Assembly: GCA_015065965.1 (NCBI GenBank)
Contig: SVPH01000009.1
Span: 1-64,000, forward strand
DNA length: 64,000 bases
Origin: Oscillospiraceae bacterium
Lineage (GTDB): Bacteria; Bacillota; Clostridia; Oscillospirales; Acutalibacteraceae
Direction: 5' to 3'
In this document: in pieces, positions 4,324 through 64,000 of the stretch
How positions within the stretch are numbered: position 1 is the first letter of the stretch
Layout: each line of letters opens with the position of its first letter
Notes under the pieces: generated by a model
The model's database searches: none
What the model was told of the DNA's origin: nothing
The model's input: the letters and a program-made list of their open reading frames with translations, nothing else
Position numbers and translations under genes: made by a program

Positions 4324-4351
4324 TTGGTTCACCTCCTATTATAATAACCTC

Positions 4352-4373
4352 AAAGCGAACATATGTTTGCTTT
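4352..4373. promoter_or_regulatory. 22-bp palindromic operator candidate
   Basis: The segment has half-sites AAAGC(G/A)AACAT, perfectly symmetric except for one pair, centred at ACATATGT. A further AAAGCG-type half-site follows at 4374-4380. It lies in the divergent region between the excisionase-like gene and the DUF6076 gene, where a repressor could control both. On the minus strand, TATAAT occurs at 4340-4345 between palindrome and RBS. Regulator unknown. Confidence 0.5.
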
Positions 4374-4489
4374 ACGCTTTGATTATAGCATCCGTTGTCA
4401 AAAATGCAACGGTTTTGCACGATATATTTTGGAGCGATTTAGATTTTCAAAAAGACCACAAAGAGGCATTTTCTAAAAGGGGGACGTAA

Positions 4490-5956
4490 ATGGGAAAAAT
4501 TTATACAGAATACAAATCATCAAAATATGATGAATATTTAAAAGCAAGAACACCTCAAAATGGGTTAGCACTTAATGTGTATAGTAATCGAGTAGATATA
4601 AACTGTGAAAGTCAATCTGTATCGATAAATACAGATTCTTATAATGATTATGTTGACAAAGATTATCAGACTTATGATTCAGATTCTGGTTTTGATTTTT
4701 TTCTAAATTTAAATGATTTAATGGTTTATATATTTAAAGATGTTGTTTCGGATAAAAATGATTATGCAAAAATTTATGTTGACAGGCAAAAACATAAGGC
4801 TGATTATGATAAAATCAATTTTCGCTTTTTGGATGATGAACTCATTAAATTAATCTTTTATTCGGAAGAGCCTGACGTTGTTCCGGATTTAATAAACTTT
4901 TTGTTTGGGTCATCTATAAAGTTTGATTTAGGTGTTGGAATTTTCGATTTTATATACGCAGATTTTGACACACCGTTGAAATATCTGATAAATACTTTTG
5001 AGTCGTTTTTATGTGATGATATATTTATGCTTGAAAATCACTATGTTTTTAATGAAAAGCAAAAGAAATATGAGCTGTTGTTAGATTATGATAAAACTGT
5101 TGCGATGATTAGTCCGCTAATGTATGCATCTGTTTACTCGGGAATTTGTCCTCCAAGATTTGATTTCACCCAAGATGTTCTTGAGCAGATAAAATGGTAT
5201 GGTAATTACCTGATAACCTTGCAAAATGAATATCGTGAGATGATAAAATTTTGTTATGATGAAGATTATTACCCTGAATTCTTTTTAGGTGCATCACCTA
5301 AAGCCAGATATTATCTGTATAGAGCAATTAAAGGATTACCAAATAAAAGTTACAGAACGGTAGAAATGAGTTCAAATAGTTTTTGTGATGATTACATCAA
5401 ATTATTAGATGATACATATAGATATCAGGATTTTGATATGAACAAATACAGAATTGAAGATTTTGATTTTGCAAAAGATTCGGAAATTGATTTGGTTGGT
5501 ATGGTGTCAACGCTGTCATCATATCGCAACATTACAGAAAATTATGTTTTTTCTAAAGTTGATGAGATTCTTGAACTCGAATTCAGCAAAATGATAAATA
5601 GTAACATTAAAATCAAAAAATGTAAAAGATGCGGTAAATACTTCAGACTCAAAGGAAATTATAATACGGATTATTGTGGTTACATTGCTGAAGGTGAGAC
5701 GAGAAATTGCCGTGAGATTGCTGCGGCAGAAAAGTATAAAGAGAAAAATGCCGATAACAAGGCGTTACAGATTTATAACAAGTATTACAAGCGATATCAC
5801 GCTCGCCTCAAAGTCAAACAGATTAAAGAACCGGATTTTTATAGCTGGAAGTATAAAACTCTGATTATGCGTGTCGAGTGCGAAGACGGAAACATCACAC
5901 CGGAGGAATATGAAGCCTGGAATGAAGAATATTTCCCGAATCGAACTAAAAAGTGA
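4490..5956 (+). CDS. DUF6076-family protein, accessory gene of the element
   Basis: The 488-residue soluble protein is rich in Asp, Tyr, Phe and Lys. Its C-terminal third carries a zinc-ribbon-like motif: KCKRCGKYF (about 383-391), then YCGY and NCREIAAAEKY. After it comes a helical tail with KYYKRYHARLK. This arrangement matches DUF6076 proteins, which I know from clostridial genomes as uncharacterised. An AAAGGGGG site precedes the ATG. The gene is clearly more AT-rich than the guaA region beside it, consistent with acquisition. It lies between int and the guaA end, inside the presumed element. A defence or regulatory role is possible, but nothing in the sequence proves it. Confidence 0.7.
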   Translation: MGKIYTEYKSSKYDEYLKARTPQNGLALNVYSNRVDINCESQSVSINTDSYNDYVDKDYQTYDSDSGFDFFLNLNDLMVYIFKDVVSDKNDYAKIYVDRQKHKADYDKINFRFLDDELIKLIFYSEEPDVVPDLINFLFGSSIKFDLGVGIFDFIYADFDTPLKYLINTFESFLCDDIFMLENHYVFNEKQKKYELLLDYDKTVAMISPLMYASVYSGICPPRFDFTQDVLEQIKWYGNYLITLQNEYREMIKFCYDEDYYPEFFLGASPKARYYLYRAIKGLPNKSYRTVEMSSNSFCDDYIKLLDDTYRYQDFDMNKYRIEDFDFAKDSEIDLVGMVSTLSSYRNITENYVFSKVDEILELEFSKMINSNIKIKKCKRCGKYFRLKGNYNTDYCGYIAEGETRNCREIAAAEKYKEKNADNKALQIYNKYYKRYHARLKVKQIKEPDFYSWKYKTLIMRVECEDGNITPEEYEAWNEEYFPNRTKK

Positions 5957-54932: not shown

Positions 54933-55826
54933 TTAAAGTCCTGTTTTTTCGTTAATATACTTTCTTGCCATGCAAGCGTATTCATAGGGATTGGCCTTTG
55001 CAGGATCTTGTTCTGCTTCAACAACAACCCAGCCTTCGTATCCTGCTTCGTCAAGAATATCAAATACGGGTGTGAAATCAAAGTCGCCGTCACCGGGAAC
55101 TGTGAATGCACCTGCTCTTACACAGTCAAGGAAACTCCAGCCCTTTTCTTTACCCTCGTTGATTACATCCTGACGGATGCTCTTGAGGTGAACATGTTTA
55201 ACACGGTTAACATATTTTTTGAGAACACCGATTGCATCTTCGCCGGAGAATGAAAGGTGACCGGTATCATAAAGGAGATAAACAAGGTCAGGATCGGTGA
55301 TTTCCATGAGTTTGTCAATTTCTTCCTCTGTCTGAACGCCTGTTCCCATATGATGATGAACGGTGAAATACATGCCTTTTTCTTTTGCAAGTCTGCCCAT
55401 TTCGTTAAAGCCTTTTGCAATAAGTGCCCACTGTTCATCAGTGTAAACAGGTTTGTCTCCAAATATGCTCAGAGCCTTGCCTTGAATGGAGTTGCCCTGT
55501 TCGGATGCACCGATAACCTTTGCGCCGAGTGCATGAAGAAAATCTCTGTGCTTGATAAAAGCCTCGATTGTTGCCTCGTAACCGTCTGAAAGAAGAAGTG
55601 ATGAAAACCATGCATTGCAGATTCTTAAACCTCTTACATCGAGTTTGTGCTTGAGTGTTTCAACATCCTTGGGGTATTTATTGCCGATTTCGCTGCCTTT
55701 AAAGCCGCTGAGTGCCATTTCACTTACGCACTGCTCAAAGGTGTTTTCTGCACCAAGGTCAGGCAGATCGTCATTTGTCCAAGCGATAGGTGCTATCGCA
55801 AGGCTTACTTTTTCTTTGTTAAGCAT
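54933..55826 (-). CDS. iolE: Inosose dehydratase
   Basis: The 297-residue TIM-barrel (xylose isomerase-like AP-endonuclease fold) protein has [17 protein letters not shown] (about 8-24), [50 protein letters not shown] and VVVEAEQDP. These match IolE, which dehydrates scyllo-inosose to a diketo cyclohexane. ATG 55826 has GGAGG at 55835-55839. It follows iolD, with the ribosome site inside the iolD tail. Confidence 0.9.
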
Positions 55827-55843
55827 ATATTTTGCCTCCGATA

Positions 55844-57700
55844 TCAATAAAGTCTTGCTTTTTCTATGTTTGCCTGCATATCTTCATATGCAGCCTGAAC
55901 AGTTTCACTGGTTGATACCTCGGCAACGCCGACTCTCCACCAAGCGTCATAACCGTCACTCATGCTGCCGTGAACAACTTTGATGTCAAACAAGCAGGGG
56001 ACAGTCTGTTCTTTTGAATCCTTGATTGCTTCACGAAGTTCAGCAACATTTGTAACTCTGTATGCTTTGCAGCCGTAACCCTCTGCTATCTTTGCAAAGT
56101 CAATGGGAACGATTGCACCGTCAAGCATACCTGTAAGGGGATTCCTTGCCTGGAATCTTGTGCCGAATGTATCGGTGCCCTGATTGTTCTGAAGGTTTTC
56201 AATGCATCCCCAGCCTGAGTTATCAAAAAGCATAACATTAATCTTAGTGCCTTCCATAACTGCGGTGTAAAGTTCACTGTGAAGCATTAGGAAACTGCCG
56301 TCACCAACCATAGTGTAAACTTCTCTGTCAGGCTCCGCAAGTTTTGCGCCGAGAGCGCCGCAGATTTCATAACCCATGCAGGAAAAACCGTATTCCATGT
56401 GATATGTTTTGGGAACTGATGAACGCCAGAGTCGCTGCATGCAACCGGGGAGACTTCCCGATGAACCGATGGCAATAGATTTTTTATCTATTAATCTGTT
56501 AATTTCGCCGAGAGCCCTTGTCTGTGAAAGACCTTCTTTAAGGTGAACACTGTAGCAGCGATCAACCTCAGCGATGTATTCTTCTTTGATTTGTGCAAGT
56601 TCGCTGCTGTCCCAATTTGAATAGTATTCTTTAACTGAAAGTGCTCCCATTATGTCAAGTAATGCGGTTTTTGCATCGGCAATTACTGCGGTTGCGTCCA
56701 TTTTAAATGCATCAAATGAACACACATTAATTGAAAGCATTTTTACGTTTGGATTGTGAAATCCCCATTTTGATGCGGTTGTGAAGTCTGTGAGGCGTGT
56801 GCCGACTGCGATAACAAGATCAGCCTGCTTTGCAACAGCGTTTGCTGCGGGACCGCCTGTTACACCGATACCACCCATGTTAAGCGGTAAATCCCAGCGG
56901 ATATTGCCTTTACCTGCTTGTGTTTCGCCAATGGGAATGTTAAATTTCTCGGCGAAGAACTGTGCGGTTTCCCATGCTTCGGAATATGTAACGCCGCCGC
57001 CTACAACAAGAAGCGGTTTTTCACTGCGCATGATAGCGTTAACTGCTGCGTCAATTTCACGCTGAGTAGGTGAGCGTCTGTCAAGATACCATACTCTCTT
57101 TTTAAGAAAATAATCGGGGTAATCAAATGCTTCGCCCTCAACATCCTGAGGCATTGCAAGGCAAACTGCGCCTGTCTCGGCAGGATCCGTAAGTACACGC
57201 ATAGCATTAAGGCAGGCAGTCATAAGCTGTTCGGGTCTTGATATTCTGTCCCAATATCTGCAAACAGCCTTGAATGCGTCGTTAGCGGTAACGGTGTAGT
57301 TTGTGGGCTGTTCAATTTGCTGAAGAACAGGATCGGGCTGGCGGCACGCAAAGGTGTCACCGGGAAGAAGGAGCAGGGGAATGCGGTTAGCGGTTGCAGT
57401 ACCTGCTGCAGTTACCATGTTAAGTGCACCGGGACCGATTGACGATGTACATGCAATAATCTGACGGCGGTTTTTCTGCTTTGCAAATGCAATTGCGGCG
57501 TGTGCCATGCCTTGCTCGTTATGACCCTGATAGAATTTAAGATTATGGCCGCCCTGTTCAAGTGCCTGACCGATGCCTACAACGCAGCCGTGGCCGAAAA
57601 TGCCGAAAATTCCGTCAACAAATTTTGTTTCAACTCCGTCAAAACTGATATACTGATTATCAAGGAATTTGACAAGAGCCTGTGACATAGTGAGTTTCAT
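55844..57700 (-). CDS. iolD: 3D-trihydroxycyclohexane-1,2-dione acylhydrolase
   Basis: The 618-residue thiamine-diphosphate enzyme has the N-terminal TPP-binding pyrimidine domain with [17 protein letters not shown] and a conserved Glu/Gln-Gly region, and [20 protein letters not shown]. The C-terminal pyrophosphate domain has [18 protein letters not shown] (GDGS). It hydrolyses the ring of the IolE product. It ends just before iolE and follows iolB by 18 bp. The order of transcription is iolB, iolD, iolE. Confidence 0.93.
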
Positions 57701-60362: not shown

Positions 60363-62686
60363 TTTTTATATTCCTTGACGAAAACTCAAAAATAAACGGC
60401 TCGCACCTGAAAGGCACGAACCGAATTGTTATTTACCGAAATGCAGAGGGCGGAATACTGCTGAGAACTGCAGCGCACGAAGTTTATCATTTCATTGAGC
60501 AGTGGTCACCCGAAAGCGCAAAGCAACTGCGCGACTATACACTCAAAGCGCTCGGCGAGAGCGGAGTTGACATTGAAAAGGCGCTTGAAAAATATCAAAG
60601 GCAGGGCTATGAAACCAGAGAAGCGCAGGAATCGGATTTTGTTGCAGATTCAATGTTTGACGTTTTCACAAACAAGAAGTTCATAATGCAACTTGCGAAA
60701 GAGAACCTGCCGCTTATGCAGAGAATATCGAAAAGATTGACGGCGGTAACGGATATAATCAGAGGCAGGCTTGAAGCACTCGGCGTAAGAAAAGGCTCTG
60801 ACGGAGCGGAACTCAAGCCCGAAATCAAGGCGCTGAAGGATGAGGCAGAGAAACTTGACAATATCCGAAATCTGTTTATGGAAGGTTATAAGCAGGCGAG
60901 CGAGACCTTTAAGGCGCAGAATTCTCAGAAAGATGCAGGTAACGGGCAAAAAAATAACGCCGATGTGGCGGTGAAATACAGTGTGAAAGAAAACGAGTTT
61001 GACATAACATTTAAGGATATCGAAGAACTTCGCAAAATCCCCAAAAAGAGCGTAACCGAATTGACAAGTGAAGAAGTAACAATTACCCAAAAATGGGCAA
61101 GGAAATTTTATAAAGAAATAGGCAAAAAATCACCGTTCTTTCGTGCTTGGTTTGGTGATTGGAGAGAAAATGATAAACAAAAATTAACAAAGGTAATTGT
61201 AAACACAAAAAAGATAGATGTTTCGGACGTTCCAAGAACGGGCACGAAAAATCTTGATACAGGATGGGATATTAGTGTTTCGGGTAAAGGTATAGATAAA
61301 ACGGCGAACGCTCACGGAAAATGGTCACTTGAATATCATTCTCTTTCAACAATCAACTCGATGTTGGAAAATGCCGTTTTGCTTGAAACGGTTGTTGTAG
61401 GAAACCCAAGCAAAAAACTTGGACAAAACGTTGCTTTTCTGCATCATATGTATGTTCCTATTGTTGCTGATGGTAAGGATATGGTGGCAAAATTATATGT
61501 CACTGAGGAAATTGGAAACGAGCATAAGTTTTATCTTATAAAAACAGAAGCAGTTTCTGCCAAATCCAGACGTGACAGCGATAAAGCCTCACGTCAACTT
61601 TCCTCGGATAAAACTGCTTCTATAAATACAGTAGCAGATTTGTTTGCTTTTGTCAAGGAAAGAACTGCGGATTTTGAGAGTGATAGTGACAATCCGATTT
61701 TGTTTAAACCTAAAAAAGTTGGAATACTTACAAATTCTGATGGTACACCGCAGATTGTTTATCATGGAAGCCCTCAAAAATTCACTGTTTTTGAGTATAG
61801 TAAAATGAATACAAACGGAAATGCTCACGGCAGAGGATTTTATTTTACAGAAGATAAAACGATGGCGGAAGGCTATCAAAGAGAAGGGGGACAACTCCTT
61901 GAAGGGTATCTTAATATAAAAAATCCTATGTCAGAAGAAAAAGTGACAATAAAGAAACCCGACCTTGTAAAATTGATAAAGGCAACTTGTGAAGCGGAAG
62001 CAAAAGAAATGGTTGATGACGGAGAATATGATAATGTATCTGATGCGTTACCAGACACATGGATATCCAATTATGTTTACACTTACGGAATGAGCCTTAA
62101 TGAGGCGTACAGAGAGGTTGCAGATATAATTTATTCATCCGCCGAGAGCGATGTTGAAATTATTGCTGAAATAACAAATGTTACTGATACAGGAAACGTT
62201 CTTGAAAATGTGCATAAAACAACGGGTTATGACGGCGTAATTTACACTAACGAACGAGGAACACACGAATATGTTGCCTTAACAAGCAATCAATTCAAAT
62301 CCGTTGATAATATCGGCACTTTTGACGGAAATAACCCCGATATCAACTACTCCACCAAAGACACAAGCCCGATACAGGCGCATTATGCGGAAGTGCTTCG
62401 TGAAAACAACAACCTTCGGCAGATTATATCCGCGCTTGACGAGATGAATTACAGCAGCGCAAGGAAAGAATTCACGCTTAACAGCAGGGATATTTTCGGC
62501 ATTGCAAGCAAACTGATAAAGCAGACTTCAAGCAAATATGACAAGAAAACCCTTGCCGATGAACTGACGGTTCTTTATGATTACATGGCGAACAACAAGG
62601 GAACGGCAGACAGCGAAGAAATCCTTATGAGGTTCATATTTCAGTCAATTATTTTGCTGATTTGTTTTGTAAAGAATTCAATATAG
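60363..62686 (+). pseudogene. Fragment of a phage/ICE polyvalent protein (zincin, FGDW domain, ADP-ribosyltransferase-like)
   Basis: A frame is open from about 60347 but has no start codon before ATG 60653. Upstream in the same frame lies a zincin motif HEVYH (60476-60490) with RTAAHEVYHFIEQ around it. Then come a charged helical region, the FRAWFGDW block that links domains in polyvalent proteins (about 61140-61165), an EndoU/LPD-like region, and an ADP-ribosyltransferase-like region (VYHGSPQKF, GRGFYFTEDKTM, GYDGVIYTNERGTHEYVAL, about 61755-62290) ending NNPDINYS. The frame runs into the antisense of the next gene at 62641, so both ends look cut. GC is higher than in neighbours. Assignment is from family pattern recall. 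Confidence 0.7.
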
Positions 62687-63438
62687 TTGTCAAATCTTTC
62701 AATTTTTTCGTCACCATCCATGGCGGAAATAAGGCGCAATGCTCTTTGCGTTTCATTTATGGCTTTGTCTTTTTCTCCTTTGTCGATATAAAATTCAGCG
62801 ATTTTCCACATCATTTGCAAAAGAATTTCAAATGATATCCACTTTTGTTTTTCTGCAGCATTATATTTCGGCTCGCCTGTTAATATGAAAGCCATTTCGG
62901 ATAGTTTTGTAAAATAAATTTCGGGAATTTGTTCAAGAGCAGATTTCGCACCTTCGGCATCGCCTTTAGCATTGTATGCATAGGCAAGAAATCGCAGTGC
63001 ATCATATCTGACCTCATGGTTGCTGGTTTTGTCAATTAATTTTGATGCAAGAGAGATTGTTTCATCCGGATTCTTACTGTAATTCATAACATAGAGCATA
63101 TTGTTGAGAAGAATATCGTTATCAGGGTATTTTTTGAGCCCTTCTTCAAGAATTTTTTTGCCATCTTCGGGATTCGTTTCTCTGAGTTTATATGATTCAT
63201 AAACTAATTGTTCGATTTCCTTATCTTTTTCACTTGAGTCAAATGATAAAAGTTCATCGGTTGAGATTCCGAAATACTGTGCAATAACCGGCACTAAGGT
63301 TATGTCCGGCAGAGCGATATCGTTTTCCCATTTGCTTACAGCCTGAAAGGATACACCGATTCTTTCCGCAAGTTGTTCCTGAGTTATTTTTTGCTTTTTA
63401 CGCAAGGATTTAATTTTGTTTCCTATTTTTAATTCCAT
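62641..63438 (-). CDS. Xre-family regulator with helical TPR-like C-terminal domain
   Basis: The 265-residue protein has an N-terminal helix-turn-helix (KIGNKIKSLRKKQKITQEQLAERIGVSFQAVSKWEND, partly quoted; about 4-60) followed by about 190 residues of paired helices with TPR-like spacing (LLNNMLYVMNYSKNPDETI, ALRFLAYAYNAKGDAEGAKSAL, KDKAINETQRALRLI). Such regulators often bind a peptide or ligand through the C-terminus. It is transcribed alone; CAGGAG precedes the ATG. It follows the truncated polyvalent gene tail to tail. Confidence 0.87.
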   Translation of the reverse strand: MELKIGNKIKSLRKKQKITQEQLAERIGVSFQAVSKWENDIALPDITLVPVIAQYFGISTDELLSFDSSEKDKEIEQLVYESYKLRETNPEDGKKILEEGLKKYPDNDILLNNMLYVMNYSKNPDETISLASKLIDKTSNHEVRYDALRFLAYAYNAKGDAEGAKSALEQIPEIYFTKLSEMAFILTGEPKYNAAEKQKWISFEILLQMMWKIAEFYIDKGEKDKAINETQRALRLISAMDGDEKIERFDNYIEFFTKQISKIID

Positions 63439-63559
63439 AGCAGTGCTCCTGTTTTATATGTTAAAAATGCTCTTTACAATTTGAGTATATGGTATTTTGT
63501 TTTAATAATCAATAACTGCACAAACGACATTGTTCAACCTGCAGTTGAAAACAAAAAAA

Positions 63560-63619
63560 TTGGGCGGTTTCTGACCGCCCAACAAATTAATAATACCATA
63601 ATTAAAACATAAAAGTCAA
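63560..63619 (-). promoter_or_regulatory. Promoter immediately followed by a terminator hairpin
   Basis: Minus-strand -35 TTGACT (63619-63614), 18-bp spacer, -10 TATTAT (63595-63590), giving +1 near 63583. The next bases form TTGGGCGGT (63582-63574), loop, ACCGCCCAA (63568-63560) and then TTTTTTT, a complete terminator at +1. It lies 120 bases before the Xre gene, so it may gate that gene or yield a very short RNA. Confidence 0.6.
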
Positions 63620-63705
63620 TATATTTCATATAAATTATGTGCATGTTAAACAAATTTCTGTGAAATATACAAAGCAAAAGCGATAACTTTGTACAATATT
63701 CCGTC

Positions 63706-63734
63706 TTGAAAACATCAAAAATCTATGCTATATT
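63706..63734 (+). promoter_or_regulatory. Promoter of the terminal structured RNA
   Basis: -35 TTGAAA (63706-63711), 17-bp spacer, -10 TATATT (63729-63734); +1 expected near 63740. Confidence 0.75.
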
Positions 63735-63739
63735 ATAGT

Positions 63740-64000
63740 CAAGGAAAGGGTGATACCGATGAACAGGTAAAAACCTGAAGATTAATGAGATAAACAAAAC
63801 AAATCTCAAAAATCTTCGCCGCAATCTTAATTAAAATAAATCAGAAAAAGTAAAATCAGAAATACTTTAAAACTGAATTACAGAATTAAGATTGGACTAT
63901 ACTGCAGAAAGAGAGGTTATCCAAAGATGTTAGATATCAAGAGTTCACAGAAATAACCCTTGGCTGAATGTGTAAAGAAACATCAGTCAAGGGTTATTTC
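63740..64000 (+). ncRNA. Candidate structured noncoding RNA or riboswitch-like leader
   Basis: About 260 nt follow a promoter and contain no credible reading frame (an ATG after AAAGGGTG gives only three codons). Nested stems are visible: CAGGT/ACCTG (63764-63777, AAAA loop); GAAGATT/AATCTTC (63777-63783, 63811-63817) enclosing GAGAT/ATCTC; an 11-bp stem CAATCTTAATT/AATTAAGATTG (63822-63832, 63884-63894) enclosing TCAG/CTGA and AAAGTA/TACTTT; and a 17-bp terminal stem (63951-63967, 63983-63999). Single-stranded parts are A-rich. GGTTAT (63915-63920) could pair with ATAACC of the terminal stem. I know no family that I can assign with confidence; the clostridial raiA-type RNA is one to test. 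Confidence 0.65.
63951..63999 (+). terminator. Large terminal hairpin at the window edge
   Basis: 17-bp stem (one G-U pair) between 63951-63967 and 63983-63999. A-rich on the 5' side and T-rich on the 3' side; any T tail lies beyond the window. Confidence 0.7.

Follow-up and report, generated by a model that had tools for sequence, protein, structure and literature searches.

At the end of the 64-kb stretch of DNA analyzed here (the window, positions 1 to 64,000) lies what appears to be a member of an uncatalogued family of small RNAs of gut Clostridia that falls outside Rfam 15. Judged from its sequence and that of its relatives, the RNA is a stand-alone gene and not a riboswitch leader, and the conservation of a minigene and of a frame of about nine codons indicates that it probably works by being translated. 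A typical member combines a strong extended -10 promoter, at least one minigene of 2 to 4 codons about 25 nt past the -10 element, a structured middle that evolves fast, another strong Shine-Dalgarno (SD) site, an ORF of 8 to 10 codons (ORF2, M(x)LDxKxxxK) and an intrinsic terminator in whose 5' arm the ORF2 stop codon lies. We provisionally file it as a translated (dual-function) small RNA, in which the conserved signals are those of transcription, of two translation starts and stops, and of termination. Our main reading, to which we assign a probability of about 45%, is that these small RNAs form a new, translated family, onto which ribosomes load and from which they quickly leave, with ribosome occupancy as the working principle.

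Promoter, spread and copy number of the family

The features of the window copy are as follows.

63706-63711, + strand: -35 element TTGAAA; the same hexamer is found in 65/117 high-scoring relatives
63726-63734, + strand: extended -10 element TGC-TATATT, separated from the -35 element by a 17-nt spacer
63741-63750, + strand: the minigene's Shine-Dalgarno-like AAGGAAAGGG, within the ribosome-binding motif GG-N3-7-CC-N1-3-ATG
63748-63776, + strand: hairpin round the minigene (UACC 63754-63757/GGUA 63766-63769, AUG in the loop, outer GGGU/ACCU)
63759-63770, + strand: 3-codon minigene ATG AAC AGG TAA (M-N-R-stop), resting on motif-ATG counts in 151 members
63777-63817, + strand: hairpin GAAGAUU/AAUCUUC, belonging to the variable core of the RNA, from the predicted fold only
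63822-63894, + strand: long helix 63822-63832/63884-63894 round an A-rich core, with covariation in 13 sequences
63906-63916, + strand: Shine-Dalgarno AGAAAGAGAGG of ORF2
63927-63956, + strand: ORF2, 9 codons, MLDIKSSQK-stop, the stop lying inside the 5' arm of the terminator
63950-64000, + strand: intrinsic terminator hairpin, arms ~63950-63967/63983-64000

The TTGAAA/TATATT promoter proposed in an earlier note on this DNA was borne out at 63706-63734, with transcription predicted to start near 63741. When the corresponding position was scanned in the 124 relatives that have a minigene and sufficient upstream DNA, an extended -10-type promoter scored highly in 117, compared with 19/346 flanking control windows; among these 117, the TG extension was present in 112 and the 17-nt spacer in 107. 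The window stops inside the RNA gene, and the U-rich tail of the terminator runs on to ~64008. An own promoter and an intrinsic terminator are thus present at the level of a predicted consensus.

Relatives were collected by several searches. BLAST over 60 genomes, including that of the window, revealed 14 sites distributed over 11 genomes within the genus (E <1e-20), three of these genomes carrying two copies; the 3' third alone was matched in a genome of another family. A conserved-motif scan of a species-genome collection identified 74 stretches, every one titled as coming from a metagenome-assembled or uncultured bacterium and 59 of them from ruminant-gut (RGIG) records. A first covariance model, which consisted of the 3' module only (SD, ORF2 and terminator), matched 14/45 genomes of the genus and 44/295 genomes of the order (27/149 genera, 11 families). 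A rebuilt model matched 21/391 genomes of the class, adding seven families; of 299 genomes sampled across the phylum, it matched none but the window's own. The covariance scans were run under strict filters, at which weak matches are lost. Relatives thus span at least 18 families within a single class, Clostridia. No exact match of two family patterns was found in IMG/VR viral contigs, blastn with the window copy gave no match in phage or plasmid records, and no E. coli copy was found.

A genome carries up to four separate gene copies. On the minus strand of locus L050, three copies (1172-1274, 1614-1715 and 4338-4437) lie within 3.3 kb, two of them ~440 nt apart, and other close pairs were seen in L176, L179 and L205.

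The minigene and ORF2

The earlier note had described about 260 nt without a usable reading frame; we found two very short conserved frames there, MNR* and MLDIKSSQK*. In an alignment of 14 sequences the 5' block consisted of an SD followed by ATG-xxx-AGG-TAA. We then read the motif GG-N3-7-CC-N1-3-ATG across the wider family without demanding a stop codon. Among 160 motif ATGs in 151 unique members (14/165 rows having been dropped as duplicates), 143 opened a frame of 2 to 4 codons (3-codon 125, 2-codon 14, 4-codon 4), compared with 12/72 in 239 flanking windows (3-codon 3, 2-codon 3, 4-codon 6); the members are phylogenetically non-independent, near-identical cores alone having been removed. 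In a separate count, SD-ATG-N3-N3-stop occurred in 106/149 members compared with 11.6 in shuffles, and 25/151 members lacked a 2- to 4-codon minigene by the motif used. The minigene region was used by the first BLAST alone and is absent from the wide-family searches (the motif pattern and both covariance models), so its conservation is not circular.

The length of the minigene is kept while its codons change. The 125 3-codon minigenes encode MYR (35), MNR (18), MRR (14), MYK (8) and 26 other kinds of peptide, with Arg or Lys last in 98/125, and TAA, TGA and TAG stops are all seen. This pattern argues for selection on starting and stopping, not on the peptide. Some members carry two to four minigenes in a row, for example three in L098 (16/149 rows were dropped from this listing as duplicates). 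L158 has four successive minigenes upstream of ORF2, 45-107 nt apart, and a tandem arrangement was also noted in L157.

On our main reading, ribosomes would load at the 5' end of the RNA, add one to three residues to the initial methionine on the minigene, and then terminate or drop off. Such start-stop cycling would keep a ribosome on the 5' end and so protect the RNA, and the ribosome there would set the folding of the middle and the frequency with which ORF2 is translated. In the minigene, selection would act on starting and stopping as such. A more specific version, which we hold more tentatively, is that start-stop cycles on the di- to tetrapeptide minigenes of this stand-alone RNA, which are sometimes in tandem, sense or set translation capacity (initiation, drop-off or termination), and that the outcome is reported or acted on by the roughly nine-codon frame embedded in the terminator. 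Complementarity between SD and anti-SD is assumed on general grounds; patterns for the 16S 3' tail gave no match in the window's own genome or in 45 genomes of the genus. If this more specific version is true, the RNA would belong to a class of its own, neither non-coding nor a conventional mRNA, and its working parts would be ribosome start-stop cycles. A minigene kept in length and free in codons across at least 18 families would show very short translation under selection, and the family could offer a testable natural setting for studying how peptidyl-tRNA drops off, how ribosomes protect RNA and what micropeptides do. With frames of 3 and 9 codons, it would escape both gene callers and purely non-coding RNA scans.

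ORF2 had a length of 8 to 10 codons in 131/134 cases, a figure partly conditioned by selection since the pattern and the models contain ORF2 and the regular expression requires ATG, Leu/Ile, and Asp or Glu-Pro; stops were TAA in 89, TGA in 31 and TAG in 14. This count, of 134 ORFs from 136 entries with 2 outside the regular expression, was not de-duplicated and includes 79 unique 9-codon sequences. In the motif-scan stretches, where the pattern fixed ORF2 codons 1-5 only, a stop followed after 8 or 9 codons in 73/74. The exceptions were ORFs of 15 codons in L079 and L183, and a frame change in one of the copies in L176. ORF2 is present in the printed sequences of L220, L224 and L225, in L224 with a GTG start (by eye).

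One alternative is that the RNA is a miniature mRNA, with the 9-residue peptide MLDxKxxxK as its product and the minigene and middle as 5' UTR control. The length of ORF2, Leu-Asp, Lys-5 and the final Lys are widely kept, and model matches outside the pattern carry one-codon in-frame insertions after ATG (MTLD, MMLD, MKLD); Leu and Asp are also written with synonymous codons (Leu-2 as TTA, CTA, TTG, CTG or CTC). Single-nucleotide codon differences were synonymous in 33/112 types compared with 24.4 expected. However, synonymous freedom in ORF2 is small, the final AAA is perhaps just an A-tract pairing with the U-tract, a divergent clade begins MLEP... or MIEP..., and no gene for processing, export or a receptor recurs in the neighborhoods. 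We regard this alternative as doubtful.

Codon choice in both frames shows conservation of more than the encoded residues. Among unique 9-codon ORF2s (79 sequences) Lys-5 was AAG in 65/70 and Leu-2 was TTA or CTA in 65/71, and the minigene Tyr codon was TAC in 47/47; by contrast, the window's long frames (stop-free frames of at least 900 nt, not annotated genes) favor AAA, TAT and other Leu codons. This difference makes a nucleotide-level role possible, and nucleotide-level constraint seems to act on ORF2 and the minigene as well. In the window's genus, the AGG of the minigene may be kept partly for pairing, because AGG-UA pairs with the UACC preceding AUG. This inner UACC/GGUA helix was invariant in 13 sequences, so covariation gives no test of it.

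AGG also bears on a second alternative, that repeated abortive translation occupies ribosomes or rare tRNAs under some condition, making the RNA a sink of the kind considered for the phage lambda bar minigenes. The last minigene codon was AGG in 67/125 and another NGG in 6, whereas AGG made up 53/576 Arg codons in the window's long frames. A work cited in PMC8012679 links early NGG codons with peptidyl-tRNA drop-off in its title, and tandem minigenes would fit a sink, as would the presence of as many as four gene copies in a genome. Set against this, the minigene codons vary, so that no single tRNA is targeted; a sink needs neither a conserved ORF2 nor covarying structure; and the axe-txe minigene is reported to be non-toxic and inactive in trans (PMC8708949). 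We judge a sink unlikely.

Structured middle and terminator

Excess folding and stems claimed in the earlier note held up. The predicted fold of 63740-64000 had an energy of -72.5 kcal/mol (z -8.4) and that of 63740-63946, without the terminator, -42.7 kcal/mol (z -5.3); each beat all 200 dinucleotide shuffles. Compensatory changes in the 11-bp helix 63822-63832/63884-63894, which the note had proposed to look for, were found in homologues: two-sided changes affected 6/9 aligned pairs among 13 sequences including the window, modest numbers in which four sequences supply the two-sided changes of the core. In the wider family, the best helix score just before the SD of ORF2 was at least 9 in 38% of members compared with 8% of shuffles (n = 149). 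The terminator-like end is a predicted intrinsic terminator and covaries strongly, with two-sided changes at all 18 modelled pairs among 94 sequences and none of 500 shuffles scoring as high, in an alignment fitted to the tested structure. The loop GTAAAGAA was considered as a universal feature of the terminator and rejected; it was forced by the motif pattern, and model matches carry other loops.

The last minigene and ORF2 are separated by anything between 35 and 537 nt (n = 126; for L223 a tandem minigene served as the anchor in place of ORF2 in the spacing, motif and promoter counts, and its 37-nt spacing is an artefact), which makes the translated modules the constant part. Promoter, minigene, ORF2 and terminator are the constant parts of the gene, the two tiny frames with their SD sites being the most conserved and the structured middle the least. 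This bears on a third alternative, in which the middle regulates in trans and the only role of the tiny frames is to stabilize the RNA. The covarying helix lies in the middle, and PMC8708949 discusses how bound ribosomes or SD binding could stabilize an RNA. In near-coreless L066 (minus strand, ORF2 match 5291-5399), however, the minigene stop lies 35 nt from the ORF2 start and both frames are retained; this, together with the poor conservation of the middle, makes a trans-acting middle distinctly unlikely.

Gene neighborhood and known RNA families

That the RNA controls a downstream gene in cis, as a riboswitch or attenuator, which the earlier note had offered with its ligand-responsive leader, has a terminator behind a structured leader and the GGTTAT (63915-63920)/ATAACC letters in its favor, but is extremely improbable, since the next downstream ORF (at least 100 aa) lies on the same strand at 46 and on the opposite strand at 45 of 91 loci, neighbors are unrelated, a tRNA-Pro (CGG) gene follows the window copy just past 64000, and exact GGTTAT/ATAACC pairing, and with it the competition proposed for these letters, occurs in only 3/151 relatives. 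No partner gene within 3 kb either side was found above 10/133 loci, the figure for the commonest neighbor cluster, whose median identity was 25%. An XRE/TPR gene lies upstream of the window copy and likewise in two relatives, and three other relatives adjoin what we take, by eye, to be glutamine synthetase. The view that no annotated gene explains the locus was confirmed, and the evidence supports a discrete promoter-driven RNA gene with covarying stems; the description as a structured ncRNA survives for a structured stand-alone RNA gene and not for a purely non-coding one, given the two conserved tiny frames.

Upstream of the start of the XRE gene, at 63553-63582, we observed a hairpin with strong GC pairing, TTGGGCGGT...ACCGCCCAA, followed on the minus strand by a T-run and terminator-like in appearance. 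The window also contains an ORF (60653-62686) with polyvalent-protein ADP-ribosyltransferase (PF18760) and LPD3 (PF18798) domains, which could be what truncation has left of a larger mobile-element protein, because its final residues resemble an unrelated tail (by eye).

Rfam 15 gave no family match at the locus or in the relatives scanned, where raiA, 6S, T-box and riboswitch models had been put forward as candidates. A cmscan of the window at gathering scores identified one tRNA elsewhere, and 63000-64000 gave no raiA at E<=10; scans of 8 and 18 relatives gave tRNAs and one lysine riboswitch only. The suggested raiA type found no RF03072 match in the window or the relatives scanned, and a raiA search of the window's own genome gave 0 matches, as did all 14 controls. 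Neither 6S, T-box, tmRNA, riboswitch nor other Rfam models matched the RNA. Weak matches to animal microRNA families (terminator) and FopS/RsaOG (nearby hairpin) fell below gathering scores and were rejected. Replacement of tmRNA was also rejected; tmRNA scored over the curated cut-off in 39/45 genus genomes, the window's own included (a looser count of 44/45 takes in tRNA-like matches, and the control also gave matches in archaea). No such RNA was described in the published titles and abstract openings searched, and the peptide strings MLDIK, MLDIKSEQK and MLDNK returned 0 papers. Thousands of predicted candidate RNAs are given in PMC8040213, and the family may be among them, unnamed.

Minigenes are known mostly as phage or leader elements. 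The closest known cases, axe-txe mg2 and lambda bar, likewise have an SD and a very short frame before another frame, here mostly with a UAA stop. Those minigenes belong to the leaders of ordinary genes or to a phage. In the present family they appear again and again on a structured RNA that stands alone, with only the roughly nine-codon frame after them. Among dual-function small RNAs, SgrS/SgrT, SR1 and RNAIII encode longer single peptides. They resemble the family in being discrete structured small RNAs with a terminator and an internal frame, whereas the family has 1 to 4 minigenes plus a frame ending in the terminator stem. ROOL, GOLLD and OLE are longer than the window RNA family; unlike them, it has no Rfam match and its pattern was not found in viral contigs. 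They are alike in being orphan structured bacterial RNAs, and ROOL is named for the rumen (PMC12286853). The raiA motif RNA (ModT, RF03072), with helices P1-P8 and two pseudoknots, is likewise a structured Bacillota RNA gene with its own promoter and terminator, but its model does not match here (PMC11706538). The two-codon axe-txe minigene mg2 is translated and acts in cis to increase expression of the gene that follows, and ribosomes on mini-ORFs protecting RNA are discussed in the same source (PMC8708949); the gene that follows there is an ordinary downstream gene, which the window RNA lacks. The lambda bar minigenes appear in titles cited in PMC8012679.

A second unannotated RNA-like gene was observed in L004 at ~1480-1930 (G000:C3, ~55810-56260); a 6S RNA lies ~470 nt away on the opposite strand. 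The second gene was considered as a family member and rejected, its best score with model R2 (14.3 bits, E 0.087) not being significant. This 6S-adjacent RNA also occurs in L023, L024 and L033, and an Rfam scan of the 4 loci returned 6S. Both RNAs have a promoter/5' box TATATTATAGNCGAGGAAAGGAAC in common, and the 6S-adjacent RNA carries an SD and a conserved short frame (MYLEAHQFAAAEINHR, MYSAEHQLAAAESDR, MYLAEHQLAAAATER, MYSAEHQLAAAVSDK).
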